Assembly (NCBI RefSeq): GCF_014192645.1
Contig: NZ_JACHYE010000003.1
Coordinates: forward strand, 186,001-250,000
Reading direction: 5' to 3'
From: Herbaspirillum sp. Sphag64
GTDB taxonomy: Bacteria; Pseudomonadota; Gammaproteobacteria; Burkholderiales; Burkholderiaceae_D
DNA length: 64,000 nucleotides
Under the pieces are notes generated by a model. That model searched no databases and was not told where the DNA came from. It saw only the letters and a program-made list of their open reading frames with translations. Below are positions 14,921-30,035 of this stretch, piece by piece. Each line of letters starts with the position of its first letter. Within the stretch, counting starts at the first letter, position 1. The position numbers and the translations under genes are program-made.

Positions 14921-15805
14921 ATGAACAAGCGTATCCGCATAGGAGGGGAGCTAGCACGTGCCGTGTTGATAGGCTTAGCCAGCGCGAGTCGGGAAGTGCT
15001 GATGTTACTCATACTGACACTGGCATTGCTAATGTTTGGTGCCGCACAGGCTGATGCGCTGCATCCACATGAAGATGACTCCGTTGATGATCTGGTGCGT
15101 GCTGCGCAAAACCCCGTCTCGACGATGATCAGCCTGCCGTTCCAGAATAATATGCAGCGGCTTGAGAATGGGGCGACGCTGAACTCACTGCTGATTCAAC
15201 CTGTGATTCCCTTTCGGATCAACGAAGACTGGAATCTGATCACGCGCACCATCTTGCCGGTTGTCGCACTCTCGGCCCCACCAAATGGTGTGCAGCGCTG
15301 GGCATTAGGGGATATCCAGCAATCGTATTTCTTTTCCCCCAATGAGTTCTCCAATGCCGGGCAGGTCTGGGGTGCCGGGCCGATCGTATCGTATCCAACC
15401 GCGTCCAGCAAAGCTTATGGCTCTGGGAAATTAGGGCTGGGGCCCTCGTTTGTTGGGGTGCAGTTTAGTGGCCCCTGGGTGTTTGGCGGCTTGCTCAACA
15501 ATATCTGGTCGGTAGCGGGAGACAGTGATCGCAACACGGTCAGCCAGATGTCTTTTCAGCCATTCATCAACTATAACTACAGTGACGGCTGGTTCGTGCA
15601 GAGCGCGCCGTTGATCACGGCCGACTGGAAGGCTACCGGTGGCAACAAATGGACAGTTCCGGTGGGCGGTGGCGGAGGCCGGACATTCAGGCTCGGCAAT
15701 CAGCCGGTGACGAGTATCCTGACCGCCTTTTATAACGTGGAGCGGCCAGACGGCGGCCCGAAGTGGAACGTTCGCTTCCAGATGACCTTCATGTTCCCGC
15801 GTTGA
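14921..15805 (+). CDS. Outer membrane transporter-like beta-barrel protein (phenol-degradation MetA-like family)
   Basis: This 294-residue protein has a signal peptide (LLILTLALLMFGAAQADA) and a body rich in alternating aromatic beta strands. It ends in FQMTFMFPR, which resembles a barrel C-terminus. The sequence pattern (NPVSTMISLPFQNN, WNLITRTILPVV, VWGAGPIVSYPTAS, FQPFINYNYSDGWF) fits a widespread proteobacterial family, often annotated as transporter or, misleadingly, 'neuromedin U'. The role is not established; passive uptake across the outer membrane is commonly assumed. It lies 266 bases after the sugar-sensing kinase and may or may not be controlled by it. Confidence 0.8.
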   Translation: MNKRIRIGGELARAVLIGLASASREVLMLLILTLALLMFGAAQADALHPHEDDSVDDLVRAAQNPVSTMISLPFQNNMQRLENGATLNSLLIQPVIPFRINEDWNLITRTILPVVALSAPPNGVQRWALGDIQQSYFFSPNEFSNAGQVWGAGPIVSYPTASSKAYGSGKLGLGPSFVGVQFSGPWVFGGLLNNIWSVAGDSDRNTVSQMSFQPFINYNYSDGWFVQSAPLITADWKATGGNKWTVPVGGGGGRTFRLGNQPVTSILTAFYNVERPDGGPKWNVRFQMTFMFPR

Positions 15806-15807
15806 TC

Positions 15808-17016
15808 TCAGCCAGTCGGCTGCAACAGCTTGCGTAAAGTCGCAATGGTGTAGTCGACTTCAGCCGCTGTCGTATAACGGCCGAGGGAGATCCGGATGGC
15901 GCTGCGTGCCAACGCCTCGGAACGACCTAAGGCAGCCAGAACATAGGATGGTGCCGCATTGGCTGAGTTACAGGCCGAGCCGGCCGAGACCGCAATGTCG
16001 AGCAACTGGTTGGCAACCGTCATGCCAGGCCCCAGATCGATATCGAAGCTCACATTCAGGTTATGCGCAATACGTTGCTCAGCGTGGCCATTCAAGATCA
16101 CGCCGGGCAGATCGCGCAAGCCATCCCACAAGCGTGTGCGCAGCGCGGTAATGCGTACCGTTTCTTCTTCCATCAGGCTCGATGCCAGCGCAAAGGCTTC
16201 GCCCATGCCAACAATCTGATGCGTAGCCAGCGTACCGGAACGCATCCCGTTTTCGTGACCACCACCATCAATCTGGGCTTCCAGTGCGAGTGCCGGATTG
16301 TGGCGTACAAACAGCGCTCCGATGCCCTTAGGACCATAGATCTTGTGGGCGCTGAAGGACATCAGGTCGACCTTGAGTGAACGCAGGTCAATCGGCAGCT
16401 TGCCAGCCGCCTGTACCGCATCGACATGGAACACGATGCCGCGGGCGGCGCAGAGTTCGCCGAGTTCGGCAATCGGTTGAATCACGCCAATTTCATTGTT
16501 GACCATCATGACCGACGCCAGGATGGTGTCCTCGCGCAGTGCAGCTTCGAATTGCGCGGTGCTGATCAGGCCATCCGCTTGCGGTTGCAGTACGGTCACG
16601 TCAAAGCCGCTACGTGCCAGCGTTTGCATGGTATCGAGTACTGCCTTGTGTTCGGTAGCGACGGTGATCAGATGCTTGCCACGTCCCTGTGCGCGCAGTG
16701 CTGTCGCGGCGCCCTTGAGCGCCAGATTATTGGACTCGGTGGCCCCTGAGGTCCAGACAATTTCACTGGTCTGCGCACCAATCAGCTTGGCGACCTGTTT
16801 GCGTGCCTTTTCAACCGCGGCCTTGGCTTCCCAGCCGAAGGTATGGGAGCTGCTGGCCGGATTGCCAAACTTTTCCGTCAGAAAGATGCACATTTTGGTG
16901 GCGACAATCGGGTCTACCGGTGTAGTGGCCGAGTAATCCAGATAGATAGGCAATTGCACGTCAGTGGCTGGCGCGACGGAGTCAGTGAGGGAGCTGGTAC
17001 AGGCAGGGGCGTTCAT
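15808..17016 (-). CDS. Cysteine desulfurase (IscS/NifS family)
   Basis: This PLP enzyme of about 402 residues removes sulfur from cysteine, leaving a persulfide on its active Cys and releasing alanine. Visible motifs are [43 protein letters not shown], the PLP lysine in [17 protein letters not shown] and the catalytic Cys in [12 protein letters not shown]. That loop is IscS-like. I chose the ATG at 17016; a longer frame beginning with TTG at 17070 has no ribosome site. No IscU, IscA or ferredoxin gene is adjacent, so this is probably a second, specialised copy. It is divergent from a LysR gene that leads the FMO/ABC cluster. Confidence 0.88.
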
Positions 17017-17170
17017 GGCGGCGGCATTCAAAAGAGGGCTAACGACAGCGAAACTATAAGCATAGTCCAAAACGGTTAGTTGAAAAACGAATATAAAGTC
17101 ATTTCAATGCATGATTTTCCAACTTTTGGACATGCAGAGTCGCGATAGTTCGACAATTCAATCGCTATTT

Positions 17171-17234
17171 TTTCGCATTAACTTATGCGAAATGATTATA
17201 CTAAATTCGAATATAGATCGACCTATAATTCGAA
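17171..17234. promoter_or_regulatory. Two dyad operator candidates between the cysteine desulfurase and lysR genes
   Basis: A perfect inverted repeat TTTCGCAT-N6-ATGCGAAA occupies 17171-17192. A second near-perfect dyad, TTCGAATATAG-N6-CTATAATTCGAA, occupies 17206-17234. Both lie in the A/T-rich divergent promoter region just before the LysR start. LysR proteins bind such dyads at divergent promoters, so control of both directions by the adjacent LysR is likely. The assignment is inference. Confidence 0.6.
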
Positions 17235-17255
17235 AATCGTATAAAACAGTGTCGC

Positions 17256-18182
17256 ATGGATATCAATCAACTCGAAGCCTTCTCGGCCGTCATGACCATT
17301 GGCAGCGTTACCGGAGCCGGGCGCAGCCTTGGCCGTTCGCAACCGGCCGTCAGCAAGGCGATTCAGGAGCTCGAGAGTGAGCTGGGTTATCCGCTGTTTG
17401 ACCGCAACGGCCCACGAGTGACGCCGACTGACAAGGCCTTTCTGCTGTATGAAGAGGTGGAGCGCTCGCTGGTGGGCTTGCGCACCATTCGCAGCCGGGC
17501 TGAAGAGATCGGACGTGGTGAGCCGCAACCTTTGCATCTGGTGGCGACCCCGGCGCTGGCCTCAACCATAGCGCCAGCAGCCTTGCGGCTGGTACAGGAC
17601 CAGTTGCCGGCACATGTTCAACTTCGCAGCGCCTCGGCCGAGCAGGTGGTGTATGCCGTATTGCACCGTACGGTGAATCTGGGGCTGACCAGCTTGCCGG
17701 TCGCGCATCGCGGCCTGGAGCTGCACTGGGTCGGGCAGGCCCCTTGCGTGGCGGTACTGCGCGCCGATCACCCACTGGCGGCATTGGCGACGCTCTCGCT
17801 TGAGGATTTACGCAGCCAGCCGCTGATTACCATGTCCAATCGTTATCGGCTGCGGCAACGGATCGATATGGCGCTGGCGCAAGACAAGCCACTGGCTGTG
17901 TCGATTGAAACCAACACCTCACTGAACGCCATGATGGCCGCGCACGCGGGTTTAGGCATCGCGCTGGTAGAGCCTATGACGGCGCTGGGTATGCCAATCG
18001 AAGGCGTTGCAATCCGCGCGCTGGCGGTCAATATTCCCTTTTATTTTGGCGTTGTGACGCCTTTTGGCAAGCCGGTCGATCATCTGACCGCCGCCTTGAT
18101 TGACGCCGTGGAAGCGGCGTCAAAGACGATTTTGCCGGGCTTCGTCAAGCGTGCTGCCGGCGCGCATGACGAGTTGCTGTAA
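17256..18182 (+). CDS. LysR-family transcriptional regulator
   Basis: This 308-residue regulator has an N-terminal winged helix-turn-helix (LEAFSAVMTIGSVTGAGRSL, SQPAVSKAIQELE) and a periplasmic-binding-protein-like effector domain from about residue 90. It is divergent from a cysteine desulfurase and stands 30 bases ahead of the FMO gene, with two dyads upstream. It probably controls the FMO/ABC/thioesterase cluster and perhaps the desulfurase. Its effector would be a substrate or intermediate of that cluster. Confidence 0.92.
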   Translation: MDINQLEAFSAVMTIGSVTGAGRSLGRSQPAVSKAIQELESELGYPLFDRNGPRVTPTDKAFLLYEEVERSLVGLRTIRSRAEEIGRGEPQPLHLVATPALASTIAPAALRLVQDQLPAHVQLRSASAEQVVYAVLHRTVNLGLTSLPVAHRGLELHWVGQAPCVAVLRADHPLAALATLSLEDLRSQPLITMSNRYRLRQRIDMALAQDKPLAVSIETNTSLNAMMAAHAGLGIALVEPMTALGMPIEGVAIRALAVNIPFYFGVVTPFGKPVDHLTAALIDAVEAASKTILPGFVKRAAGAHDELL

Positions 18183-18212
18183 CGATCAAATCAGTAAGAC
18201 AAGAGGCCGATC

Positions 18213-19718
18213 ATGGTGAACCAGACAGACAAGCAGGATCAGACTAACGCGCCAATCGGATTGGCAGCTCTGGAGGCAAGGCTGCAGCAGGAGCTTGATT
18301 GGCTGGAGCTACCGGCCAAGGCATGGATGCCAAGCCTGACCCGTGACGCCCAGCCGTTGCTGGAGGTGGCTATTATTGGCGGCGGTCAGGCCGGGATGGC
18401 AGCGGCTGCCTCCTTGCTGCATCTGGGAATCCCTGCTGTGATTTTCGATCAGTCGCCCGCTGGCTTTGAAGGACCGTGGGCGACTACGGCGCGCATGGAA
18501 ACGCTGCGCTCTCCCAAGAAGCTGACCGGCCCGGCCTTGGGCTTTGGTGCCTTGACCTTTCGCGCCTGGTTCGAGGCGCAGTTTGGTCTGGAGGCGTGGG
18601 AGGCGCTGGACAAGATTCCGCGTTTGCAATGGATGGATTATTTGCGTTGGTATCGGCAGGTATTGAAGCTGGATATCCGCAACGAACACCGGGTCAAGGG
18701 CATCCTGCCGCAGCCCGATGGTGTGGTGCAGCTGCAGTTACAGACACCTGCCGGTGAGCAGGTCGTGCTGGCACGCCGGGTAGTGTTGGCGACCGGCCGT
18801 GATGGCCTCGGTGGTGCGCAATTGCCGGAGATCGCCAAAGAGGTGCCGCGCACACTGTGGGCACACTCGTCGGATGCAATGGATTACCAGCAACTGGCTG
18901 GCAAACGGATTGGCGTGATCGGTGCCGGTTCGTCGTCGATGGATAGCGCGGCGACGGCGCTTGAGTGTGGCGCTGCCAGCGTCGACCTGCTGATCCGGCG
19001 CACTGAGCTGCCGCGCATCAACAAGGGTAAGGGCGCCGGCAACCCCGGCCTGACGCATGGACATCTGCAGTTGCCGGATGCCTGGAAATGGCGCATCCGT
19101 CATTACGTCAACATTCAGCAGACGCCGCCTCCGACGGCCAGTGTGAGCCGGGTGTCGCGCTTTGCCAATACCCGTTTTATTTTTGGCGCGCCGATTGAGC
19201 GCATCGTCAGCACGGGTGACGGGGTGCAGGTACACACCCCTCGCGGCGTATTTGCCTATGATTTTCTGATTTTCTCCACCGGCTTTCGGGTGGACTGGAG
19301 CCAGCGTCCTGAATTTGACGCCATTGCGCCGCATATCCGACCCTGGGCAGCACGCTACACGCCACAGGCCGGTGAGGAAGATGCTGAGCTCTCCGCCTTG
19401 CCGGATCTCGGGCCGGTATTTGAGTTTCAGCAAGCGCAGCCGGGCGCTTTGCCGGGGCTGGAACGGGTTCATTGTTTCTGTTACCCGGCGGTACTCAGTC
19501 ATGGCACGCTGTCGGGCGACATCCCCGCCATCAGCGATGGTGCACAGCGTCTGGCGCAAGGGATTGCCGCCTTGTTCTACCAGGAAGATATTGAATTCCA
19601 CTACCGCAATATCGAGGCCTATGCTGAGCCGGAACTACGCGGTGATGAGTGGCAAGCCTGGAAGCCGGGGCAGGAAGACGTCCGCCCTGCACCCATCCTG
19701 CAGGAAGCAACACCGTGA
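18213..19718 (+). CDS. FAD/NAD(P)-dependent flavoprotein monooxygenase (FMO-like)
   Basis: This 501-residue flavoprotein has an FAD-binding fold with AIIGGGQAGMAAAASLL around residues 53-70 and a second dinucleotide fold with VIGAGSSSMDSAA near residue 234. Two dinucleotide folds in this order suit flavin monooxygenases that hydroxylate or oxygenate N, S or C atoms. The ATG has AAGAGG upstream. The stop overlaps the GTG of the next permease gene, so it is part of the operon. I cannot name the substrate. Oxidation of the compound imported by the adjacent transporter is the natural inference. Confidence 0.82.
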   Translation: MVNQTDKQDQTNAPIGLAALEARLQQELDWLELPAKAWMPSLTRDAQPLLEVAIIGGGQAGMAAAASLLHLGIPAVIFDQSPAGFEGPWATTARMETLRSPKKLTGPALGFGALTFRAWFEAQFGLEAWEALDKIPRLQWMDYLRWYRQVLKLDIRNEHRVKGILPQPDGVVQLQLQTPAGEQVVLARRVVLATGRDGLGGAQLPEIAKEVPRTLWAHSSDAMDYQQLAGKRIGVIGAGSSSMDSAATALECGAASVDLLIRRTELPRINKGKGAGNPGLTHGHLQLPDAWKWRIRHYVNIQQTPPPTASVSRVSRFANTRFIFGAPIERIVSTGDGVQVHTPRGVFAYDFLIFSTGFRVDWSQRPEFDAIAPHIRPWAARYTPQAGEEDAELSALPDLGPVFEFQQAQPGALPGLERVHCFCYPAVLSHGTLSGDIPAISDGAQRLAQGIAALFYQEDIEFHYRNIEAYAEPELRGDEWQAWKPGQEDVRPAPILQEATP

Positions 19719-20689
19719 TCGGGCCATTGGTACGCAGCCTGTTGCAGGCGCTGGCGGTGTTGTTGCTGATGACGGTGATCGTGTTCTTTGGCTTGCACAT
19801 GATCGGCAATCCGGTCGATACCCTGATCGGGCAGGATGTAGATCAGGTGGATCGGGTGCGCATTATCCATCAGCTGGGGCTGGATCAAACTATCGGACGT
19901 CAGTATCTGGCCTTCCTCAATGGCGCTCTGCACGGCAATCTGGGGAACAGCTTTGTGTATAACGAACCGGCGATCGGTCTCATGCTGCAACGCTTGCCTG
20001 CTACGCTGGAGCTGGCCGTGCTGGCCTTGCTATTGGCATTGTTATGCGGGATTCCTTTGGGCTTGCTGGCCGGGCTCTATCCGCAGCATCCATTGTCTCG
20101 ACTGGTCATGACGGGCAGCATTCTGGGCTTTTCATTACCGACCTTCTGGATTGGCCTGATGCTGATCATGGCCTTCAGCGTCACGCTGGGCTGGTTGCCG
20201 TCGGGGGGGCGTGGTGCCACCGCCAGCTGGCTGGGCGTGCAATGGTCGTGGCTCACGATCGACGGCTGGCGGCATCTGATTTTGCCTGCGCTGAATTTAT
20301 CGTTGTTCAAGATTTCACTGGTGATCCGACTGACCCGCGCCAACGTGCGTGAGGTGATGCCGATGGATTACGTGCGCTTTGCGCGGGCCAAGGGCCTGGC
20401 ACCGCTGCGGGTGATTCTGATGTATGTGTTGCGCAATACCTTGATTCCACTGGTGACGGTGCTCGGCATGGAGTTTGGCTCGACTATTGCTTTCGCGGTG
20501 GTGACCGAAAGTATCTTTGCCTGGCCCGGCGCTGGCAAGCTGATTCTGGATAGCATCAATGCACTCGACCGGCCGGTAATTGTGGCTTACATGATGGTGA
20601 TCGTATGTCTGTTCGTGAGCATCAACCTGATCGTTGATCTGCTCTACAAGCTGATGGATCCACGCGTACGGCAGGAGCTCAAGGCATGA
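19715..20689 (+). CDS. Peptide-type ABC transporter permease (DppB/OppB family)
   Basis: This 324-residue inner membrane permease shows the N-terminal TM1 (ALAVLLLMTVIVFFGLHMIG), a long extracytoplasmic loop and the DppB signature around DYVRFARAKGLAPLRVIL, which contains the EAA-like contact to the ATPases. The GTG start overlaps the FMO stop (GTGA) and has AGGA nine bases upstream; the frame upstream of it lies inside the FMO gene. It pairs with the DppC-type protein whose ATG overlaps its stop. Confidence 0.92.
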   Translation: MIGPLVRSLLQALAVLLLMTVIVFFGLHMIGNPVDTLIGQDVDQVDRVRIIHQLGLDQTIGRQYLAFLNGALHGNLGNSFVYNEPAIGLMLQRLPATLELAVLALLLALLCGIPLGLLAGLYPQHPLSRLVMTGSILGFSLPTFWIGLMLIMAFSVTLGWLPSGGRGATASWLGVQWSWLTIDGWRHLILPALNLSLFKISLVIRLTRANVREVMPMDYVRFARAKGLAPLRVILMYVLRNTLIPLVTVLGMEFGSTIAFAVVTESIFAWPGAGKLILDSINALDRPVIVAYMMVIVCLFVSINLIVDLLYKLMDPRVRQELKA

Positions 20690-21663
20690 GCGCTCAGGAT
20701 AAACACCTGCGGGACGTTGCAGGCACAATGACGCAGGACGAGGTACGGGCGCGTGTGGCCGCCTTGTCGGCCTTTGCCGCGCCACGTCGGGAGTCGCCGT
20801 GGCGACGCGTCTTGCGTAGCTTTGTCGCTTCGCGTGCGGCGATGTTCGGTTTGCTGGTGGCGACCTTACTGATGCTGGCGGCGCTAGCGGCGCCCTGGAT
20901 AACGCCACAAAATCCCTATGACCTGATGCAGCTCGATGTGCTCGATGCGCGCTTGTCGCCCGGTAGTCTGAACGGACTGGGCACTTTCCATTACTGGTTA
21001 GGGACCGATGGTCAGGGGCGCGATCTGGTCTCCGGCATTCTGTATGGCTTGCGCATCAGTATTGGTATTGGCGTCGGTTCGGCGGTGCTGGCCGGCGTGA
21101 TCGGAACACTCATTGGCTTGTTGGCAGCGTATGCCGGTGGCAAGGTCGATACGCTCTTGATGCGTCTGGCTGATCTGGTGCTGTCGTTCCCCTCGATTCT
21201 GGTGTCGATGCTGATTCTGGCCTATCTGGGCAAGGGTATTGGTAACGTGATGCTGACGCTGGTGGTACTGGAATGGGCCTACTACGCTCGCACCGCGCGT
21301 GCGCAGGCGCTGGTGGAACGGCAAAAGGAATACGTCGAGGCAGCGCGCGGGCTGGGCGTATCGGGTTGGCACATCATGGTGCGCCATATCTTGCCGAATT
21401 GCCTGCCGCCGTTGCTGGTAATCGGTACCTTGCAGATCGCCCGTGCGGTGACGCTGGAGGCGACGCTGAGCTTTCTGGGTCTGGGTGTGCCGATTACCGA
21501 GCCATCGCTGGGACTGTTGATTGCCAATGGTTACCAGACCATGTTGTCCGGCGAATACTGGATCAGCTTTTATCCCGGTATGGCGCTGCTGGTCGTGATT
21601 GTGGCGATCAACCTGGTGGGCGACCGTTTGCGTGATGTGATGAATCCCCGATGGCAGAAATGA
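20686..21663 (+). CDS. Peptide-type ABC transporter permease (DppC/OppC family)
   Basis: This 325-residue permease has a cytoplasmic N-terminal tail of about 40 residues, a first helix (AAMFGLLVATLLMLAALAAP), the family motif WLGTDGQGRDLVSGILYGLR near residue 104, and EYVEAARGLGVSGWHIMVRH as the ATPase contact loop. The start overlaps the previous stop (ATGA) and the end overlaps the next gene by 13 bases. It forms the channel together with the DppB-type protein. Confidence 0.93.
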   Translation: MSAQDKHLRDVAGTMTQDEVRARVAALSAFAAPRRESPWRRVLRSFVASRAAMFGLLVATLLMLAALAAPWITPQNPYDLMQLDVLDARLSPGSLNGLGTFHYWLGTDGQGRDLVSGILYGLRISIGIGVGSAVLAGVIGTLIGLLAAYAGGKVDTLLMRLADLVLSFPSILVSMLILAYLGKGIGNVMLTLVVLEWAYYARTARAQALVERQKEYVEAARGLGVSGWHIMVRHILPNCLPPLLVIGTLQIARAVTLEATLSFLGLGVPITEPSLGLLIANGYQTMLSGEYWISFYPGMALLVVIVAINLVGDRLRDVMNPRWQK

Positions 21664-22673
21664 GACTCCCTGTGACAGCACCAACGCTGGAAGTGCGCCA
21701 TTTGCGTACCCAATTTTTTACGCCGGACGGTATCTTGCCAGCGGTCGACGATGTGTCGCTGCGTCTGGAACGCGGGCAGATTCTGGGCCTGGTTGGCGAA
21801 TCTGGCTCGGGCAAGAGTGTGACCGGATTTTCGATTCTTGGATTGCTCGATGCGCCGGGGCGGGTGGTCGGCGGTGAAGTGCTGTTTCAGGGCCGCAATC
21901 TGTTGACACTGCGCAAACGCGATTTGCGTCAATTGCAGGGCAACCGGATTGCGATGATTTTTCAGGATCCGATGATGACCTTGAACCCGGTGTTGCGGGT
22001 CGAGGCGCAGATGGTCGATGCTGTGCTGGCGCATCGCCAGTGCAGCCGTGAGGAAGCCAGAACGCTGGCGCGTGATACCTTGGGCATGATGGGTATCGCC
22101 AGCCCGGAGCAACGCCTGCAAGCGTACCCGCATCAGTTGTCGGGCGGCATGCGTCAGCGCGTGGCAATCGCTATTGCGATGCTGCATAAGCCTGATCTGA
22201 TTATTGCTGATGAACCGACGACGGCACTCGATGTAACGATACAGGCGCAGATTCTGGCGCAGGTACAAACGCTGGCGCGTCAGCATGGAACGGCGCTGAT
22301 CTGGATCAGCCATGATCTGTCCGTCGTGGCCGGGCTGGCGGACCAGATTGCGGTGATGTATTGCGGACGCATCGTCGAGCAGGGCAGTGTGGATGCGGTG
22401 CTGGATCGCCCCTTGCATCCTTACACGCGGGGCTTGATTGGTAGTTTGCCGAGTAACAATGTGCGCGGCCAGCGGCTGCGCCAGATCCGCGGCTTGACGC
22501 CGAATCTGTTGCACTTGCCGCCGACTTGCGCATTTGCTGCCCGCTGCGAGCGGGTCGGTGAAGCGTGCCTGCAACAGCCGGGCATCAGCGAGCCAGAGCC
22601 GGGGCATTTGCTACGTTGTTTTTATCCCGCAGTTGCAGGTCTGGCAGGTGTAGCAGAAGGAGCGAAGGCATGA
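21651..22673 (+). CDS. Peptide-type ABC transporter ATPase (DppD/OppD family)
   Basis: This 340-residue ATPase carries Walker A GESGSGKSV, signature LSGGMRQRVAIAIAM, Walker B LIIADEPTTALDV and the switch His in ISHDLSVV. The C-terminal oligopeptide-transporter extension is present, with a Cys-containing segment (CAFAARCERVGEACLQQPG) that in some relatives binds an iron-sulfur cluster. Starts at 21651 and 21660 are both possible. The stop overlaps the next ATG. Confidence 0.92.
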   Translation: MAEMRLPVTAPTLEVRHLRTQFFTPDGILPAVDDVSLRLERGQILGLVGESGSGKSVTGFSILGLLDAPGRVVGGEVLFQGRNLLTLRKRDLRQLQGNRIAMIFQDPMMTLNPVLRVEAQMVDAVLAHRQCSREEARTLARDTLGMMGIASPEQRLQAYPHQLSGGMRQRVAIAIAMLHKPDLIIADEPTTALDVTIQAQILAQVQTLARQHGTALIWISHDLSVVAGLADQIAVMYCGRIVEQGSVDAVLDRPLHPYTRGLIGSLPSNNVRGQRLRQIRGLTPNLLHLPPTCAFAARCERVGEACLQQPGISEPEPGHLLRCFYPAVAGLAGVAEGAKA

Positions 22674-23689
22674 CCGCTGAGCAGCGCAAAAACGTCTTAC
22701 CATTGGTGGAAGCTTGTTCGGTCAATAAACGCTTTGGTGAGCGCCAATCCGGCTGGCTCGCACGGCAACTGCAGGCGCGTGGCTGGCTCCAGCCCGGCGC
22801 CGTCACGCAGGCGCTGGAAGCGGTTGATCTGCGGGTGATGCCGGGTGAGGTGGTCGGGTTGGTGGGCGAATCCGGTTGCGGCAAGTCCACGCTGGGCCGG
22901 ATCGTAACCGGCCTGTTGTCGCCATCGGCTGGGGAGGTGCTGGTCAACGGCATCGATCGCACGGCGCTCAATGCCGCCCAACAGCACGCGGCGCGGCGGC
23001 AGATCCAGATGATTTTCCAGAATCCGTATGCCAGCTTGAATCCGCGTTTGCGCGTTGATCAGATCGTCGGCGAGGCGGCGCTGATTCATGGGATGACCGA
23101 TCGCGCCGGACTTGATGATTACGTCTGCGTGCAATTGCAGCGCTCTGGCCTTGATCCGGCCTTGCGCGACCGCTATCCCCATCAATTCAGTGGCGGCCAG
23201 CGTCAACGTATCGGGATTGCCCGGGCACTGGCGGTGCAACCACAGATGCTGGTCTGTGACGAGGCAGTGGCAGCACTGGATGTGTCGATTCAGGCGCAGA
23301 TCCTGAACCTGTTTGCTGATCTGCGGGAGGAACTGGGATTGACTTACCTGTTCATCAGCCATGACCTTGGCGTCGTCGAGCATGTGTCAGATCGGGTTGT
23401 CATCATGTATCTGGGTCGGATTGTGGAGAGCGCGCCAGTGCAGCAGTTGTTTTCTCAGCCCAGCCATCCTTATACCCAGGCGCTATTGGCCGAGGTGCCA
23501 CGGATGCAGGCGCGTAACAAGCAGTTTGCAGCGATTGAAGGGGAAATGCCGAGTCCGCTCAATCCGCCGTCTGGGTGCCATTTTCATCCGCGCTGTCCAC
23601 ACGCAATGGCGCGCTGCCGCAGCGAGGTACCGGCGCTGCGCGAAATCGCACCGGGGCAGCTCAGCGCCTGTCATTTGCACAATCACTGA
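22670..23689 (+). CDS. Peptide-type ABC transporter ATPase (DppF/OppF family)
   Basis: This 339-residue second ATPase has Walker A GESGCGKSTLGR, signature FSGGQRQRIGIARA, Walker B MLVCDEAVAALDVS and switch His ISHDLGVVE. Walker B is followed by Ala where DEP is usual (DEAVAALD), a common DppF variant. The C-terminal Cys cluster (CHFHPRCPHAMARC) fits the family. The ATG at 22670 has AAGGAG upstream and overlaps the DppD stop. It completes the importer with the binding protein encoded 59 bases downstream. Confidence 0.92.
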   Translation: MTAEQRKNVLPLVEACSVNKRFGERQSGWLARQLQARGWLQPGAVTQALEAVDLRVMPGEVVGLVGESGCGKSTLGRIVTGLLSPSAGEVLVNGIDRTALNAAQQHAARRQIQMIFQNPYASLNPRLRVDQIVGEAALIHGMTDRAGLDDYVCVQLQRSGLDPALRDRYPHQFSGGQRQRIGIARALAVQPQMLVCDEAVAALDVSIQAQILNLFADLREELGLTYLFISHDLGVVEHVSDRVVIMYLGRIVESAPVQQLFSQPSHPYTQALLAEVPRMQARNKQFAAIEGEMPSPLNPPSGCHFHPRCPHAMARCRSEVPALREIAPGQLSACHLHNH

Positions 23690-23748
23690 ATCACTGAATC
23701 AACCTTATTTCACGCTATTTAAACCTATCGGGAACCAGAAAGAGAACC

Positions 23749-25326
23749 ATGCACAAAACCCTGCTCTCCAGTCTGCTCGCCATCGCCTTGATCGGCAGCG
23801 TCCAAGCCACCAGCGCGCAAGGTCAATCGCTCAATATCGCTTTTGCCGACCCGCTGTCGTCGCTCGACCCGCATCTCAACAACTACGCTGGCGACCGCTC
23901 GGTAGATCTGCATTTCTGGGACTTGCTGGTTGAGAATAACTACAACAAGCTGCAACCCGGTCTGGCGCTGAGCTGGAAAAATCTCGACAGCAAGACCTGG
24001 GAATTCAAGTTGCGGCCGAACGTCAAATGGCACGACGGCACACCGTTTACCGCCGAAGACGTGATCTTCTCGTACCAGCGTGCACGTAATGTGCCGGGCA
24101 GTCTGGCGACTTTTGCGGGTTATCTGCGCACCGTGGAGTCGGTCACCGCCAAGGATCCTTTGACGTTGGTCATCAAGACCACTATCCCGAATCCCGATCT
24201 GCCACTGAACCTGGCCTCGGTGCATATCGTCAGCAAGCATGTCGGCGAGAAGGCCAGCACCGATAACTACAACAGTGGTGCAGCGGTGGTCGGCACCGGT
24301 CCTTACAAGTGGGTCTCTTACACGCCGGGCGAGCGGGTCGTCATGCAACGTAACGATGCTTACTGGGGCACCAAGCCCCTGTGGGACAAGATCAATTACC
24401 GTTACATCAGCAATGCACCCGCACGTACTGCCGCCTTGCTGTCGGGCGATGTGGATGTGATCGACAAGGTCTCCGTTTCCGATCTGGCGCGCCTCAAACA
24501 GTCTGCTAACGTCAAGGTGTTTGCTTACAACGGCTTGCGTGTGCTGTTACTGCAACCGAGTTTCCGCGAGGGGCCGACGCCTTACATCACCGACAACAAC
24601 GGCAAGCCGCTGGAAAAGAACCCCCTGCTTGATGGTCGTGTGCGTCGCGCCTTGTCGCTGGCAATCAACCGCAAGGCCTTGATCGACCGTATCCTGCAGG
24701 GGGCGGCCACCGAGGCAAATCAGTGGATGCCGAGCGGTACCTTTGGTTATAACCCGGAGCTCAAGGATATCCCCAATGATGTCAATCAGGCCAAGCAGCT
24801 GCTGGCGCAGGCCGGCTTCCCGCAGGGTTTCAAGCTGACCATTGATGTGCCCAATGACCGTTATCCGCAAGCACCGGAAACCATGCAGGCGGTCGCCCAG
24901 TTCTGGACCCGTATTGGCGTCAAGACGCAGGTCGAGGTGTTGCCATGGGCTAGCTACTCGGCGCGCGCCAACAAGAATGAATTTGCCATGAGTGTGATTG
25001 CCTGGGGCAATGGCACCGGCGAGGCCAGCTATGCGATGGTCAATGTATTGGCAACCGTCGATACCAAGAAGGGGCTGGGCGCATCAAACTGGAATCACTA
25101 CAGCAATCCGGCAATTGACAAGGCGCTGACCGACTCGACCGAGGAATTCGATCCAGCCAAGCGTGAGGCAATTTTGCGCGGTGCCGCTAAAGTGGTTGCG
25201 GACGATGTTGGCGTGATTCCGCTGTTCCACTATCAAAACATCTGGGCCGCCCGTAAGGGGCTGAAGGTGACGCCAGCCAGCAGCGATCGCACTACCGCGA
25301 TGATGGTCACGCCGGACCAGAAATAA
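23749..25326 (+). CDS. Peptide-type (family 5) ABC transporter substrate-binding protein
   Basis: This 525-residue periplasmic protein has a Sec signal peptide (SLLAIALIGSVQATSAQ) and the SBP family 5 core: LSSLDPHLNN, WEFKLRPNVKWHDGTPFTAE near residues 84-103, GTGPYKW, and late RVRRALSLAINRKALI. Such proteins bind oligopeptides, nickel chelates, opines or other amphiphilic organics. The set of neighbours (CMD/AhpD proteins) matches, as I remember it, a conserved neighbourhood with a dedicated binding-protein subfamily (KPN_01854-like) of unknown ligand. This family link is from memory and unverified. Confidence 0.9.
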   Translation: MHKTLLSSLLAIALIGSVQATSAQGQSLNIAFADPLSSLDPHLNNYAGDRSVDLHFWDLLVENNYNKLQPGLALSWKNLDSKTWEFKLRPNVKWHDGTPFTAEDVIFSYQRARNVPGSLATFAGYLRTVESVTAKDPLTLVIKTTIPNPDLPLNLASVHIVSKHVGEKASTDNYNSGAAVVGTGPYKWVSYTPGERVVMQRNDAYWGTKPLWDKINYRYISNAPARTAALLSGDVDVIDKVSVSDLARLKQSANVKVFAYNGLRVLLLQPSFREGPTPYITDNNGKPLEKNPLLDGRVRRALSLAINRKALIDRILQGAATEANQWMPSGTFGYNPELKDIPNDVNQAKQLLAQAGFPQGFKLTIDVPNDRYPQAPETMQAVAQFWTRIGVKTQVEVLPWASYSARANKNEFAMSVIAWGNGTGEASYAMVNVLATVDTKKGLGASNWNHYSNPAIDKALTDSTEEFDPAKREAILRGAAKVVADDVGVIPLFHYQNIWAARKGLKVTPASSDRTTAMMVTPDQK

Positions 25327-25344
25327 ACCAGACTTAGCCGCGCA

Positions 25345-26685
25345 ATGAGCAAACTCACTCTCTCTGTCAGTCCGGCCAATGATCTGGTAGATGTGCCTCG
25401 GCGCATCCTCGTCAGCGGTGCAGCAGCTGGAGAACTGGTGCTGGTCACCAGCCAGACCATGCGCGCTGACGTCGTCTGGCGCAGCCATGCCTATTTCATC
25501 GCCGATGTGACCGGTCATATTGATCTGAGCCGGGTACCACCGGTGTCCGGAGACTATAGCGGCGTGGCACCAATGGGCCTGTTGTGGTCGCAACGTCCAG
25601 TGTTGCCAGCGGATGTGCCCCAACGCGGCCAGCAGCCGGTGTTCCATGCCACGCCTGAGCAGCCGCTGATGACGACCTTGCAGGCGCAGGCGCTGGCAGA
25701 TGACGAGGCGGGCAGGGTCAGTGCCACGCTGGTGCAGCGCTTGACGAATCCCGATGTTACGCGTCATGAGGTGCGCGAAGACGGTTTGGTAGGGACCTTG
25801 TTCCTGCCACCGGGTCCGGGCCCGCATCCGGCAGTAATGGTGCTCAACGGCTCCGGCGGTGGTATCAACGCGCCACGTGCCGCCTTGCTGGCGGCCCGTG
25901 GTTATGCGGCGTTTGCGCTCGGATATTTCAAGGTGCCGGGCTTGCCGGATTACATCTCCAATACGCCGTTGGAACTGTTCGCCCGTGGCATCGACTGGTT
26001 ACGCCGCACCGTCCGGCCATTGGGTGATTTTGTGGCGTTGAGCGGGCAATCGCGCGGCGGCGAACTGGTGCTGCTACTGGCGGCAACGTATCCTGAAAAA
26101 GTCTCTGCCGTGCTGGCCTATGTGCCCAGCGCACTGGTGCATAGTGGGCAGAGCGCGTCTGATCCGGCAGTCGGCAGAGACGGTCCTGCCTGGCTACTCA
26201 ACGGTCAGCCGATACGTCATCAATGGCAGGACAATCGCTATGCCAGCTGGCAGCCGTATGACGAAGGTTTGCCGCCACAACGACATGCACTGGCGATGCT
26301 GACGGCCTTACGTGATATGGACGCGGTGGCACGGGCGCGGATTCCGGTGGAGCGCATCCAGGCCCCGGTGCTGCTGTTATCGGCCGGTGACGACGGCGCT
26401 TGGCCGTCCAGTATCTATTGCCGCATGATCAGTGACGCGCTGCGCAGGGCCAATCATCCCTATCCGGTGCAATGGCACGACTATCAGCATGCAGGCCATA
26501 GTGTGCTGTTCCCTTGTGTACCAACTACCCAGAGCACCTATGTGCATCCGGTGTCAGGGCGCTTGAGCACACTTGGCGGTGAGCCTCACGCCAATTCCGA
26601 TGCCAATCGTCACTCCTGGCAACAGGCCCAGGAATTTTTACGCGAGGCCGTTAAGGCCCATCTGTCCAGAAAGGAAGCACCATGA
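25345..26685 (+). CDS. Acyl-CoA thioesterase/BAAT-like alpha/beta hydrolase
   Basis: This 446-residue protein has the two-domain layout of acyl-CoA thioesterases and bile acid-CoA:amino acid N-acyltransferases. An N-terminal beta domain (residues 1-130, LSVSPANDLVDVPRRILVSG) precedes an alpha/beta hydrolase domain (PAVMVLNGSGGG). The nucleophile elbow is GQSRGG with Ser236 where true BAAT enzymes have Cys. The acid is probably in LLLSAGDDGAWPS and the base is the His of QHAGHSVLFP. Hydrolysis of a thioester, ester or amide of the imported compound is likely. It starts 19 bases after the binding-protein gene and overlaps the next gene by 4 bases. Confidence 0.85.
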   Translation: MSKLTLSVSPANDLVDVPRRILVSGAAAGELVLVTSQTMRADVVWRSHAYFIADVTGHIDLSRVPPVSGDYSGVAPMGLLWSQRPVLPADVPQRGQQPVFHATPEQPLMTTLQAQALADDEAGRVSATLVQRLTNPDVTRHEVREDGLVGTLFLPPGPGPHPAVMVLNGSGGGINAPRAALLAARGYAAFALGYFKVPGLPDYISNTPLELFARGIDWLRRTVRPLGDFVALSGQSRGGELVLLLAATYPEKVSAVLAYVPSALVHSGQSASDPAVGRDGPAWLLNGQPIRHQWQDNRYASWQPYDEGLPPQRHALAMLTALRDMDAVARARIPVERIQAPVLLLSAGDDGAWPSSIYCRMISDALRRANHPYPVQWHDYQHAGHSVLFPCVPTTQSTYVHPVSGRLSTLGGEPHANSDANRHSWQQAQEFLREAVKAHLSRKEAP

Positions 26686-27224
26686 ACGGAGCGCAATCCG
26701 CGCCACAAGCACCCACCCAGCCGACACCAGCCGTTGATCTGGTTGATCAGCTGTCTGGCTTGGCTGGCGGCAACAGCCTGCACCAGTTACGTCACCTGCG
26801 CGAGAAGGTCGCCGTGGCAACACAGGGTAGCTATGACAGCCTGTTTGACCCGGCACTGCCTGATATCGGACTCGATGAGCGCCTGCTGGTAGCACTCTAT
26901 GCCTGTCGTCTGGCCGGTGCGCACAGCGTGGCCGCGCACTATCGTCAGCGCTTGCAGGCACTGGCGGTGGAGGCGTCACAACTGAGCGTGGTAGAGCATG
27001 GCACACCGGAGCAATTGCCTGCCGGACGTCTGCGCGCCATGCTGCTGTTTACCCGTGCGCTCACCGAGCGTCCGGTGGAGGGTGACAAGGCTGCCTTGCA
27101 CAGCCTGCCAGCGGCGGGAATCAGCACGCCAGCGGTGGTGGCGTTGTCGCAATTGATTGCGTTTATTTCGTACCAGATTCGTGTGGTTGCCGGTCTGCGG
27201 GCAATGCAACTGGCCGGTCACTGA
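26682..27224 (+). CDS. CMD-domain protein without redox cysteines
   Basis: This 180-residue all-helical protein resembles the carboxymuconolactone decarboxylase/AhpD superfamily (LDERLLVALYACRLAGAHSV, RLRAMLLFTRALTERPV, STPAVVALSQLIAFISYQIR). It has a single Cys and no CxxC pair, so it cannot work as a thiol peroxidase of the AhpD type. I recall a family of such CMD proteins (Avi_7170-like) next to a peroxidase-like partner and peptide-type transporters, and the arrangement here agrees. Partner subunit or lyase are both possible. The function is unknown. Confidence 0.7.
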   Translation: MNGAQSAPQAPTQPTPAVDLVDQLSGLAGGNSLHQLRHLREKVAVATQGSYDSLFDPALPDIGLDERLLVALYACRLAGAHSVAAHYRQRLQALAVEASQLSVVEHGTPEQLPAGRLRAMLLFTRALTERPVEGDKAALHSLPAAGISTPAVVALSQLIAFISYQIRVVAGLRAMQLAGH

Positions 27225-27239
27225 AAGCGAGTCCACATC

Positions 27240-27827
27240 ATGAGCGAAATTCTCACTGCAAACGGTTTTACCAATGCCACGCTGGAATGGGATGCGTGGC
27301 TCGATACGATCAATCTGGAACAGGCCAGTGCCGACCAGATCAAGGTACTCGAAGAGAGTCATCCCAAGGCAAAAACCTCTGACTACTATCTGTTTCTGGC
27401 GCATCAGCCAGAAATTCTGCGTCAGCGTTCGGCGGCCTTCAATGCCATCATGTATGCGCCGGGTGGCATGAGCCGTGCGGAGCGGGAGCTAGGTTCGCTG
27501 GTGGTATCGCGGATCAATGGCTGCGTGTACTGCGCGTCTGTGCATGCGCAGCGCTTCGAGCAACTGGCGAAACGCAACGATGTGGTACAGCAAGTTTTCG
27601 ATGAGCCGCACGGCGCTGGTACCGATGCGCGCGAACAGGCGATTGTGCAGTTTTCCATTGCGTTGACTGAATCGCCAGAATCAGTCGATGCCGCCAGTAT
27701 TGAGGCACTGAAGGCGGTCGGTCTGTCGGGGCAGGAAATCCTGGATTTGATCCATTCAGTGGCCATCTTTGCCTGGGCTAACCGGCTGATGCTCAACCTC
27801 GGCGAGCCTGTGTTCCCTGCAGCGTAA
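27240..27827 (+). CDS. AhpD-like alkylhydroperoxidase-domain protein with CxxC
   Basis: This 195-residue protein of the carboxymuconolactone decarboxylase/AhpD superfamily carries the redox motif NGCVYCASVHAQR, with Cys95, Cys98 and His102. Such proteins reduce peroxides or act as thiol-disulfide enzymes. It starts 15 bases after the CMD protein without cysteines, and the two may form a heteromer. It resembles the peroxidase-related Avi_7169-type family I remember from similar clusters. A protective or catalytic redox role after monooxygenation of the imported compound would fit. The substrate is unknown. Confidence 0.8.
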   Translation: MSEILTANGFTNATLEWDAWLDTINLEQASADQIKVLEESHPKAKTSDYYLFLAHQPEILRQRSAAFNAIMYAPGGMSRAERELGSLVVSRINGCVYCASVHAQRFEQLAKRNDVVQQVFDEPHGAGTDAREQAIVQFSIALTESPESVDAASIEALKAVGLSGQEILDLIHSVAIFAWANRLMLNLGEPVFPAA

Positions 27828-27866
27828 ACCCGGACAAGCTCAGAAAACTTCAATCAGGAGACCGAT

Positions 27867-28244
27867 ATGCATTTTCCCGCGCACTTGCGCTATACCACCA
27901 CACATGAGTGGATTCGGCAGGAAGACGATGGCACGCTTACCGTCGGCATTACGGACTTCGGGCAGGATCAGCTCGGGCCGTTGGTGTACGTACAGCTACC
28001 GACACTGGGCAGTGTGCTCAAGAGCGGCGCTGAGGCTGGTGTGGTTGAATCCAACAAAACTGCTGCTGACGTTCATGCGCCGGTGGCAGGTACCGTTATT
28101 GCGATCAATGAGGTACTAGGAGAGGCGCCGGAAGCAGTCAATGAGAATGCTTACGAACAATGGATATTCAGACTGCGGCCAACGGATGATTTTGATCCCA
28201 AGCAATTGCTAGACGCAAAAGGATACGCTGCTTTGATTGGTTGA
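27867..28244 (+). CDS. GcvH-like lipoyl carrier protein
   Basis: This 125-residue lipoyl-domain protein matches glycine cleavage H protein along its length (RYTTTHEWIRQEDDGTLTVG, ITDFGQDQLGPLVYVQLP). Lys64 in GVVESNKTAADVHAPV is the expected lipoylation site. Canonical H proteins read VESVKAASDxxxPxSG; here N replaces V and T replaces A beside the lysine. No glycine cleavage P, T or L gene is adjacent. It stands 40 bases after the AhpD-like gene with AGGAG upstream, so it is probably the last gene of this operon. H-like proteins without P/T partners can carry sulfur intermediates (LbpA in sHdr systems) or serve lipoate relay; which applies here is open. Confidence 0.85.
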   Translation: MHFPAHLRYTTTHEWIRQEDDGTLTVGITDFGQDQLGPLVYVQLPTLGSVLKSGAEAGVVESNKTAADVHAPVAGTVIAINEVLGEAPEAVNENAYEQWIFRLRPTDDFDPKQLLDAKGYAALIG

Positions 28245-28373
28245 GCTAGGTGTCATTGTTAAATAGTGAGAAAGACGCACCTAAATATAGAAATTATTCT
28301 AATTACATCTACCATTTTTCCGAAAGTTAAACTTGGCGTCTGTACAATCGCAGCGTGATGCTATTAATCTGTG

Positions 28374-28427
28374 CGCGTTCCTGGGACACAGGGACGCGGT
28401 TCTGCGGAACCGCTAGTGTATTTGTGT
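28374..28427 (+). ncRNA. Structured RNA element: two competing hairpins
   Basis: A 9-bp hairpin CGCGTTCCT/AGGGACGCG (28374-28398, one G-T pair) overlaps by three bases a perfect 7-bp hairpin GCGGTTC-TGCG-GAACCGC (28396-28413). Thirty bases later comes an intrinsic terminator. A -10-like TACAAT is at 28343. The whole could be a small RNA of about 100 bases or a 5' leader that controls the gene at 28476. I cannot match it to a known family. Confidence 0.45.
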
Positions 28428-28455
28428 AAAAGCCGCTTCCGGGCGGCTTTTTTTT
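28428..28455 (+). terminator. Intrinsic terminator downstream of the hairpin RNA
   Basis: AAAAGCCGC (28428-28436) pairs perfectly with GCGGCTTTT (28443-28451) around a TTCCGG loop, followed by more T. It ends 20 bases before the start codon of the next gene, so it either ends the upstream RNA or attenuates that gene. Confidence 0.8.
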
Positions 28456-28475
28456 CGTTCCCTAGAGAGGTTTCC

Positions 28476-28814
28476 ATGACTATTTCCACTTTCCCTGAAC
28501 GTCGCGTTTTGCCTGAAGCTGTGCATCAGGATTTTCGTTGGATCGAAGGTGACGCCCAAGCTGCAGCGCATGCTCAGTTGCTAGAGCGTACGCTGGATAT
28601 TTCGGCCGGTATCAATACCTGTCTTGAACTGGTCTATTCGAGCAACATGGAGCGCCTCGGTAACCACGATGTGACACCTGCCGAGCGGATCTTGCCGGTG
28701 CTTGGTGTCGGCGATACTGACCGCCTGATGCGCCTGAGTATTGCGGCCTCGGCACTGTTGCGAGAAGAGGTCAGGCGTGCAGTTGAATGCCTCAATGATA
28801 CGGATCTGGAGTAG
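28476..28814 (+). CDS. Small hypothetical protein
   Basis: This 112-residue protein is of no family I recognise. The ATG has AGAGAGG five bases upstream; a longer frame back to 28371 would run through the terminator hairpin and is unlikely. The sequence is mostly helical with no membrane segment or signal peptide; it contains QAAAHAQLLERTLDISAGIN and ends in an acidic tail. Its position right behind an RNA hairpin set and terminator suggests conditional expression. Confidence 0.6.
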   Translation: MTISTFPERRVLPEAVHQDFRWIEGDAQAAAHAQLLERTLDISAGINTCLELVYSSNMERLGNHDVTPAERILPVLGVGDTDRLMRLSIAASALLREEVRRAVECLNDTDLE

Positions 28815-29021
28815 GGCGTAACTCCCAGGCCATTACCTGGCCAGTTGCCGCTGATGATGACTGGAGTCAATAGCGTTGACTAAGTCGCTGTTGATCCGAA
28901 GTCATCGGCGGTGGTCTTGAATAAGTTCGGGCAGGTATGTCTATGCAATGTACGTTTTATGAAAGTTGGGGGGTGGTATTTCGAATAATTATTGATTTTT
29001 AATCGTCATTACTCAATACCT

Positions 29022-29093
29022 ATGCAGACTTCCTTTGGTCCACCACCCCCCTATCTGATGCACACTTCTTTTGATCCTCCTCCACCTTATTCT
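29022..29093 (+). repeat. Two degenerate 36-bp tandem units encoding MxTSFxPPPPY
   Basis: Unit 1 is 29022-29057 and unit 2 is 29058-29093. The proline codons differ between units (CCA CCA CCC CCC against CCT CCT CCA CCT) while the encoded PPPPY and TSF are the same. The duplication is therefore old enough to have accumulated silent changes, yet the peptide is kept. Confidence 0.8.
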
Positions 29094-29567
29094 GCATCGT
29101 GTCGCATTGATTCCCGTCAGTCTCCCGAGGCGGTAGAGAATTTTTTTGCCCCCCGGGGACCATTGGAGGCGATGTTCGTTGAGAATGTCGTTACGGTAAT
29201 TTCTACAGCCCAGAAATTGCAACCTCTGAAGCGTGCGCGCGCAGCACGACCATCAGAGGATAAAGCGTTGCAGGCGCAGTCCTTAAAAATGGCGCTTGAT
29301 CGACAATTCGTGAACCTGTTTGGCGCATCGCTGAGAGAGGCCGCCCGCAATTCAGAGTCGTTCCGAGATTCACTGAACAGAGATGAAATGAAGGTTCCTA
29401 GCGCGCCAATGAAAGAATACCTAGTGTACAAGGATCTACTGGGGGATTTGATTGAGCCAGGTACTTGCAAGTTGTCGATAGTGAAATTTCAAAAATGGCG
29501 CAATCCCGATAAAACGGAGCAAGCGCAGTTTTCAATGCCTGTCAGCCACCAGGAGACGGAGCTTTGA
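29022..29567 (+). CDS. Unknown protein with tandem PPPPY motifs (effector candidate)
   Basis: This 181-residue soluble protein has no Sec signal peptide. Residues 1-11 and 13-23 are two copies of MxTSFxPPPPY. PPxY is the classical ligand of eukaryotic WW domains, for instance in Nedd4-type ubiquitin ligases. The rest is charged and helical (AQSLKMALDRQFVNLFGASL, DSLNRDEMKVPSAPMKEYLV) with no family I recognise. The ATG at 29022 lacks a clear ribosome site; a TTG at 28992 is an alternative but would add ten residues before the repeats. Composition is richer in A/T than the metabolic neighbours, as expected for an acquired gene. Secretion into a host cell is inference. Confidence 0.6.
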   Translation: MQTSFGPPPPYLMHTSFDPPPPYSASCRIDSRQSPEAVENFFAPRGPLEAMFVENVVTVISTAQKLQPLKRARAARPSEDKALQAQSLKMALDRQFVNLFGASLREAARNSESFRDSLNRDEMKVPSAPMKEYLVYKDLLGDLIEPGTCKLSIVKFQKWRNPDKTEQAQFSMPVSHQETEL

Positions 29568-29651: not shown

Positions 29652-29753
29652 ATACTGGCCTGATCCGCTGAATCAGCCTATGTCTGTATTTCGTGGTGCG
29701 ATGCACAAAGTACCGGTGATATTCTTGTTAGCAAACCTTGACTGGAGGTGATG

Positions 29754-30035
29754 ATGAACAGAACACTTGCGCTACTGGATTGCCTGGCCCAACTCAAGGA
29801 GGCCCAGAGTTGTGCTGATGCCTTGCTGTCAGACATTGTTGCCGGTGCCGTGCGCGCCAATAAAGGTCGCGGTGCCGCCTTTGATCGTGCTACCTTGCGC
29901 GCTTTTCGTAACGCTTTGCAAACTGCCAGTACCCACTCCGATGAGGTGGAGTCGATTCTGGCGGAGTTTGAAAGCCTGCAGACTGTCATGCCGCTGGGGC
30001 AACGACAATTGCCACAAATTACTGGCCACCTGTAA
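29754..30035 (+). CDS. Small hypothetical helical protein
   Basis: This 93-residue protein is of no family I recognise. It is helical throughout (LDCLAQLKEAQSCADALLSD, ATLRAFRNALQTASTHSDEV), with no membrane segment. A very strong ribosome site (GGAGG) lies five bases before the ATG at 29754, which makes a real and well-expressed gene likely. Neighbours give no functional clue. Confidence 0.6.
   Translation: MNRTLALLDCLAQLKEAQSCADALLSDIVAGAVRANKGRGAAFDRATLRAFRNALQTASTHSDEVESILAEFESLQTVMPLGQRQLPQITGHL

Follow-up and report, generated by a model that had tools for sequence, protein, structure and literature searches.

The SirTM operons of Staphylococcus and Streptococcus encode GcvH-L, a GcvH that acts outside glycine cleavage, together with a flavin monooxygenase, and Streptococcus pyogenes is described in the same source as having no glycine cleavage system and GcvH-L as its only GcvH (Rack et al. 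2015, PMC4518038). LbpA of sulfur oxidisers is a GcvH-related lipoyl protein with another job, reported to feature two conserved cysteines (some archaeal forms excepted) and to be associated with an hdr-like cluster (PMC6067878), and in mycobacteria it is lipoylated proteins that supply AhpD with electrons (Bryk et al. 2002, as cited in PMC8945050). In the KPN_01854/Avi_7170 neighbourhood, AhpD is found in one run with an ABC importer, a flavin oxygenase and a CMD-domain protein. Here we analyse a predicted operon of Herbaspirillum sp. Sphag64 that shares features with each of these systems: eleven tightly packed genes, from a LysR-type regulator to a GcvH-type lipoyl carrier, at positions 17256-28244 (+ strand) of a 64,000-nucleotide stretch of contig NZ_JACHYE010000003.1, the whole of which is referred to as the window. 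We tentatively propose that the GcvH of this operon, in a genus that appears to have nearly lost glycine cleavage, has become an electron donor for the AhpD-like protein encoded beside it. No description of this operon was found among the papers listed by searches of open-licence literature.

The stop codon of the flavoprotein gene and the start codon of the DppB gene are joined in GTGA (GTG at 19715), the DppC, DppF and CMD genes each overlap the preceding gene by 4 bases and the DppD gene by 13 bases, and the remaining intergenic gaps are 15-59 bp. From this spacing, all eleven genes are probably co-transcribed as one tight operon. An earlier sequence-only reading of the region had proposed the same gene families, coordinates, overlaps and very short gaps, all of which were confirmed, but it had counted ten genes where eleven are present:

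17256..18182, + strand, LysR-type regulator (Pfam HTH_1 and LysR_substrate)
18213..19718, + strand, FAD/NAD(P)-binding flavoprotein, class-B-monooxygenase-like (Pyr_redox_3, Lys_Orn_oxgnase; two dinucleotide-binding motifs)
19715..20689, + strand, DppB-type permease (family profiles; GTG start)
20686..21663, + strand, DppC-type permease (family profiles)
21651..22673, + strand, DppD-type ATPase (family profiles)
22670..23689, + strand, DppF-type ATPase (its ATG overlaps the stop of DppD; a longer frame, starting at 22565, appears in the open reading frame list)
23749..25326, + strand, family-5 solute-binding protein, SBP (SBP_bac_5, 317.4 bits)
25345..26685, + strand, BAAT/acyl-CoA-thioesterase-like hydrolase (Pfam BAAT_C and Bile_Hydr_Trans)
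26682..27224, + strand, CMD-domain protein, AhpD-like without CxxC (TIGR04029, 105.4 bits against a cut-off of 100.75)
27240..27827, + strand, AhpD-like protein with CxxC...H (TIGR01926, 215.2 against 81.8)
27867..28244, + strand, GcvH-type lipoyl carrier of 125 aa (TIGR00527, 122.5 against 115.85)

The KPN_01854/Avi_7170 neighbourhood had been named in the sequence-only reading, and the likeness holds insofar as both loci combine a peptide-type ABC importer, a flavin oxygenase, a CMD protein and an AhpD in a single run of genes. Searches with the profiles of these families supported only the CMD protein, which narrowly passes TIGR04029 (105.4, cut-off 100.75). The SBP scores 90.8 bits against TIGR04028 (cut-off 468.5), the AhpD scores 185.8 against TIGR04030 (cut-off 233.15), and no LLM FMN monooxygenase (TIGR04027) was found among the eleven genes, where an FAD flavoprotein is encoded in its stead. 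Membership of this neighbourhood was therefore rejected, as three of the four defining models fail. The Avi_7170 type locus on pAtS4e has the order SBP (TIGR04028), permease, permease, ATPase, LLM, CMD and AhpD, which is also the order in Roseateles, while the gene table of the Klebsiella and Pantoea loci has one permease only and Terrarubrum features LLM, CMD and AhpD without an importer; the record of the Sinorhizobium locus carried no annotation. An LLM-CMD-AhpD run passing TIGR04027, TIGR04029 and TIGR04030 is also present (L131, 972-3276) in another member of the genus, G027, whose genome is 63% complete and does not carry the window operon. In contrast to the Avi_7170 type, the window SBP belongs to another family, the FAD flavoprotein is encoded upstream of the importer, and a BAAT hydrolase, a LysR regulator and GcvH are added. 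On the basis of these comparisons, the window operon appears to be a counterpart running parallel to that neighbourhood, with an FAD flavoprotein substituting for the FMN enzyme.

The remaining described systems are comparable in fewer respects. No sirtuin, macrodomain or LplA2 was identified among the eleven window proteins scanned, whereas AhpD, CMD, the importer and the thioesterase-like hydrolase distinguish the window operon from the SirTM operons. Unlike LbpA, the window GcvH contains no cysteine across its 125 residues. The CxxC-H arrangement of the window AhpD could be reducible by a lipoyl protein, as in the mycobacterial AhpC/AhpD/lipoyl peroxidase chain (PMC8945050), but this AhpD falls in the TIGR01926 branch, no AhpC is encoded in the operon, and GcvH stands in place of the E2 protein. 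Escherichia coli YciW, which has an upstream CysB motif and is described as linked to cysteine (PMC10821248, PMC11429811), consists of two AhpD-like halves, of which the C half matches the window AhpD (25% identity, E=5e-11). However, YciW is a single chain whose C half has no CxxC and scores below the TIGR01926 cut-off, and a blastp comparison of the window CMD protein with YciW gave no match.

The window proteins were compared by tblastn with the best 80 of 315 confirmed loci, which had been chosen by CMD similarity. Given this choice, the loci show the neighbours of this CMD and not the frequency of the operon; all locus counts rest on tblastn positions, and the automatic gene calls include many spurious antisense frames. 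The ten genes from LysR through the flavoprotein, DppBCDF, SBP and BAAT hydrolase to CMD and AhpD are encoded in this order on one strand in 65 of the 80 loci, which excludes a chance arrangement. A further 11 loci feature only LysR, flavoprotein, CMD and AhpD, two have flavoprotein, CMD and AhpD without a recognised LysR, and two are truncated by a contig start that falls within the operon. The flavoprotein, CMD and AhpD therefore represent the tightest unit, with the importer and hydrolase as a second block. Overall, the importer, FAD flavoprotein, thioesterase-like hydrolase, CMD and AhpD constitute one conserved gene unit in Burkholderiales. Rare co-occurrence in other genomes had been set beforehand as a result that would refute the sequence-only reading, and the reading passes this test; the intact order, alongside the tight spacing, bears out the operon-like layout that it proposed.

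CMD relatives were found in Burkholderiales, rhizobial and enterobacterial records. The CMD profile was detected at E <= 1e-8 in two genomes of a class-wide sample of 369, own genome included, which may be an undercount as no more than nine candidates were scored per genome. Of the 80 loci, 21 have a GcvH (20 have Herbaspirillum in their titles and the other Duganella), and its lipoyl lysine (K64) is kept in all 21. When 20 selected proteins from the neighbourhoods in other genera were scanned against Pfam, no common theme emerged; the protein nearest to sulfur metabolism was an NMT1_2 binding protein, a sulfonate/nitrate type, at one Caballeronia locus (L066). At a Collimonas locus (L019, 12326-16892), an amino-acid-type SBP_bac_3 binding protein, an ATPase-like frame and a class V aminotransferase are encoded downstream of the operon.

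The import and oxidation functions suggested previously were upheld at the family level by the Dpp-type importer and the flavoprotein. Flavoprotein residues G56, H218 and G237 are invariant in all 78 loci with the gene, and G56 and G237 correspond to the two dinucleotide-binding motifs that characterise class B flavin monooxygenases. The flavin-containing monooxygenase fingerprint is FxGxxxHxxxY; the flavoprotein features a WAHSS stretch that includes the invariant H218, and the fingerprint is not complete. Some of its homologues are named SidA/IucD/PvdA family monooxygenase in their source records, and others flavin-containing monooxygenase, CzcO or FAD-dependent urate hydroxylase. The SBP is 26% identical to E. 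coli GsiB and its best PDB sequence match is 5u4o, while its profile scores are close to one another (NikA-type 167, Opp4A-type 163, DppA-type 158 and GsiB-type 139.5 bits) and appear to single out no ligand class. The hydrolase best resembles human ACOT4 and ACOT2 (ACOT4 3k2i, E=1.2e-44) and has both Pfam domains of BAAT/ACOT type I thioesterases, as well as Ser-Asp-His in the positions of the ACOT triad; these residues (S236, D350 and H385), which are presumably catalytic, are invariant in all 67 loci with the gene.

AhpD residues C95, C98 and H102 are invariant across all 80 loci and provide the CxxC...H active site that is typical of lipoyl-dependent AhpD proteins. The protein fails the classical AhpD model TIGR00777 (19.7, cut-off 191.95) and passes the broader TIGR01926, a peroxidase-related branch (215.2, cut-off 81.8). 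A single fused CMD-AhpD chain, scoring over the cut-offs of both models, is encoded at the Klebsiella and Pantoea loci that were examined, so the two proteins probably act as a pair.

GcvH cannot cleave glycine without GcvP. In the Sphag64 genome, which is 99.99% complete, the operon GcvH is the single PF01597 match, GcvP (TIGR00461) gave no match, and GcvT gave only a partial match of 22.8 bits (cut-off 235.85). Across 34 genomes of the genus, own genome included, GcvP was found in one (G023) and full-length GcvH in 30. The four genomes with no full-length GcvH are G015, G016, G026 and G027, the first three of which are each at least 98% complete; in G015, the match is weak and partial and lies within a 1225-aa frame. 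The operon CMD gene is present in exactly the same 30 genomes, with G027 providing weak matches only (LLM-type CMD). The CMD and GcvH genes are 643-707 bp apart in 29 of these 30 genomes, all 29 being without GcvP. In G023, the two genes are 188,747 bp apart, GcvH adjoins GcvP, and the fetched operon stretch contains no GcvH. The Sphag64 genome also encodes LipB, with PF03099 identifying BirA and LipB only (a model that may miss LplA-type proteins), and lipoamide dehydrogenase is found over the cut-off twice.

Some metagenome clusters of diverged CMD and GcvH agree in the length of their longest contig (P0046/P0186, P0048/P0191 and P0052/P0190), which suggests that the link between these proteins may extend beyond the named genus. 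In G006 (L128, 1115-1485), CMD was reported in two pieces with one stop per frame, reflecting either gene decay or an error in the sequence, while the adjoining AhpD and GcvH match in full. Two other Burkholderiales genomes, G047 and G060, have one full-length GcvH each (L132, 5445-5813, and L133, 5918-6286) and no GcvP match; these are possibly further GcvHs outside glycine cleavage, and the L132 protein is encoded next to an amidase.

The window GcvH features LGP and ESNK in place of the canonical LGD and ESVK motifs. ESNK surrounds the lipoyl lysine in all 25 operon GcvH rows aligned, accompanied by LGP in 23 and LGT in 2, whereas 12 of 13 comparison GcvHs have ESVK and 12 have LGD. Among the best 120 of 1722 homologues, 63 combine ESNK or ESSK with a residue other than Asp after LG and 57 combine ESVK with LGD, with no mixed case. 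In a 38-row tree, the 17 operon-type GcvHs form one clade (support 100/99), a topology that would fit a gene that was kept as well as one that was acquired. The median dN/dS is 0.175 for GcvH (167 of 210 pairs, dS 0.1-1.5), 0.148 for CMD (262 of 276 pairs), 0.124 for AhpD (269 of 276 pairs) and 0.096 for the SBP (276 of 276 pairs). The operon GcvH is under purifying selection and maintained.

Since GcvH is encoded beside a CxxC-containing AhpD in a genome with LipB, two lipoamide dehydrogenases and no GcvP found, a dedicated lipoyl electron carrier is the simplest reading. We consider the chances evenly balanced that the operon GcvH is a redox partner of the operon AhpD rather than a component of glycine cleavage. 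The fuller proposal, in which the genus nearly lost glycine cleavage and retained or gained an H protein that was remodelled as a dedicated AhpD/CMD electron donor in a flavoprotein import operon, is put forward tentatively, as somewhat short of probable. The gene content points to a LysR-linked catabolic or scavenging operon. The importer would bring in an acylated or S-substituted amino compound, which the flavoprotein would oxygenate and from which the hydrolase would remove the acyl group, while the CMD-AhpD pair would reduce an oxidised (sulfenic- or peroxide-like) product via the CxxC of AhpD. GcvH would carry lipoate on K64, made by LipB and a putative LipA, and the AhpD disulfide would receive electrons of lipoamide dehydrogenase by way of lipoyl-GcvH, much as mycobacterial AhpD does by way of lipoylated SucB. 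That the substrate is an acylated or S-substituted (organosulfur) amino compound is a much weaker guess.

Several observations weigh against a dedicated role for GcvH. No GcvH was seen in 59 of the 80 loci (L034 among them is truncated within AhpD), which makes GcvH an addition to the conserved operon. Likewise, 45 of the 65 full-order loci, such as those of Collimonas, Pandoraea and Achromobacter, show no GcvH after AhpD; AhpD would therefore use other donors there, and GcvH is not essential. The operon GcvH also passes the general GcvH model TIGR00527 (122.5, cut-off 115.85), and the canonical motifs are not absolute, with ESTK in L121 and LGG in L116, the GcvH beside GcvP in G023. In addition, GcvT was tested in the Sphag64 genome alone, and the 34-genome sample and the 80 loci overlap and are not independent.

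The alternative that survives best is a sulfur-free nitrogen or acyl-amino pathway, in which the flavoprotein would N-oxygenate an imported peptide-like compound and the hydrolase would free its acyl group. The match of the flavoprotein to Lys_Orn_oxgnase and the SidA/IucD/PvdA names of some homologues favour this possible, if unlikely, pathway, as does a promoter box (described below) with no second perfect site in the genome. However, Avi-type CMD-AhpD relatives adjoin tauA and genes for proteins whose best models, at scores below the cut-offs, are SfnB and alkanesulfonate monooxygenase. These neighbours of a sibling locus provide the main, indirect support for a link to sulfur. The sulfur idea of the sequence-only reading, which had also drawn on a divergent cysteine desulfurase, keeps this indirect support and gained none from the promoter box. 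Both features lie upstream of the operon:

15808..17070, - strand, divergent IscS-type cysteine desulfurase (NF010611, 550.4 against 548; TIGR02006, 531.6 against 643.2)
17182..17200, + strand, conserved block CTTATRCRAAATNATTATA between IscS and LysR, the right end of which is TATAAT on the minus strand

The desulfurase narrowly passes the IscS model NF010611, fails TIGR02006 and is one among several strong Aminotran_5 proteins in the genome. It was detected in 19 of the 80 loci, all from Oxalobacteraceae, with others of this family possibly cut off at the stretch end. Owing to this distribution, it lies outside the widely conserved unit and was rejected as a core part. The promoter block lies in the AT-rich gap between IscS and LysR; its looser form, TTATRYRAAATNATTATAC, is present in all 28 stretches examined from Oxalobacteraceae, whereas 55 other loci lack it. 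When up to three mismatches were allowed, the block pattern matched 11 sites in the genome compared with 5 for a reversed control, and the only site with zero mismatches was its own. As the box has no second perfect site, this whole-genome pattern scan found no sulfur regulon sharing it, and a shared regulon was rejected. A near-palindrome, TTCGAATATAG...CTATAATTCGAA, read by eye at 17206-17234 upstream of LysR, may be a LysR site, and a simple scan found no sigma-70-like promoter ahead of LysR.

A role in defence against oxidative or disulfide stress would have the importer take up a thiol or peptide, with the flavoprotein, CMD, AhpD and GcvH acting as a reduction chain. AhpD and lipoyl proteins are described as stress reductants (PMC8945050), loss of ahpD is reported to have had the largest effect among the genes hit in an allicin-resistance clone from a garlic pseudomonad (PMC7119367), and a Gram-positive GcvH-L/LLM/OYE operon is reported to be activated by oxidative stress (PMC4518038). 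We nevertheless regard stress defence as unlikely: a full Dpp-type importer and a thioesterase would be unusual in a stress operon, and profile scans identified no AhpC, Ohr or thioredoxin encoded in this one.

It is improbable that GcvH instead serves lipoate assembly, as the relay scaffold described in Bacillus subtilis (PMC6067878), and that its place in the operon is accidental. The presence of GcvP in only one of the 34 genus genomes would be compatible with such a role, but G015, G016 and G026 show no full-length GcvH despite their near-completeness, PF03099 finds only BirA and LipB (LplA-type proteins may be missed), and the location of GcvH in the operon in 29 of 29 genomes would be left unexplained. 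The possibility that GcvH is a relic, remaining from a glycine-cleavage system now lost and brought into the operon by drift, agrees with GcvP, and GcvT over its cut-off, not being found in the Sphag64 genome, but is barely credible for a gene that is under purifying selection, has an invariant lipoyl lysine and shared altered residues, and is absent together with the operon.

If GcvH is a dedicated electron donor for AhpD, it would join the SirTM-linked GcvH-L and the LbpA of sulfur oxidation as another GcvH used outside glycine cleavage, in a role apparently undescribed among the open-licence papers listed by the searches. In databases these proteins carry the name glycine cleavage system protein GcvH, and pathway predictions from that name would err because GcvP is so rare in the genus (1/34 genomes). 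The operon also offers a small system in which the recruitment of a lipoyl protein as a dedicated thiol reductant can be tested, and through which the function of the CMD/AhpD pair (TIGR04029/TIGR04030), so far uncharacterised, could be approached.

Downstream, the operon is followed by a possible terminator:

28428..28451, + strand, terminator-like hairpin 3' of GcvH (10 pairs, then a T run)

Of the 19 terminator-like sites listed for 15500-28900, this hairpin comes first; shuffled sequences gave an expectation of 10.3 sites. Four predicted proteins encoded beyond it (28476-28814, 28992-29567, 29748-30035 and 32897-34348) have no NCBIfam or Pfam match at E <= 0.001, and their stretches are GC-poorer (0.50 at 28-30 kb and 0.51 at 32-34 kb) than the operon (~0.59).

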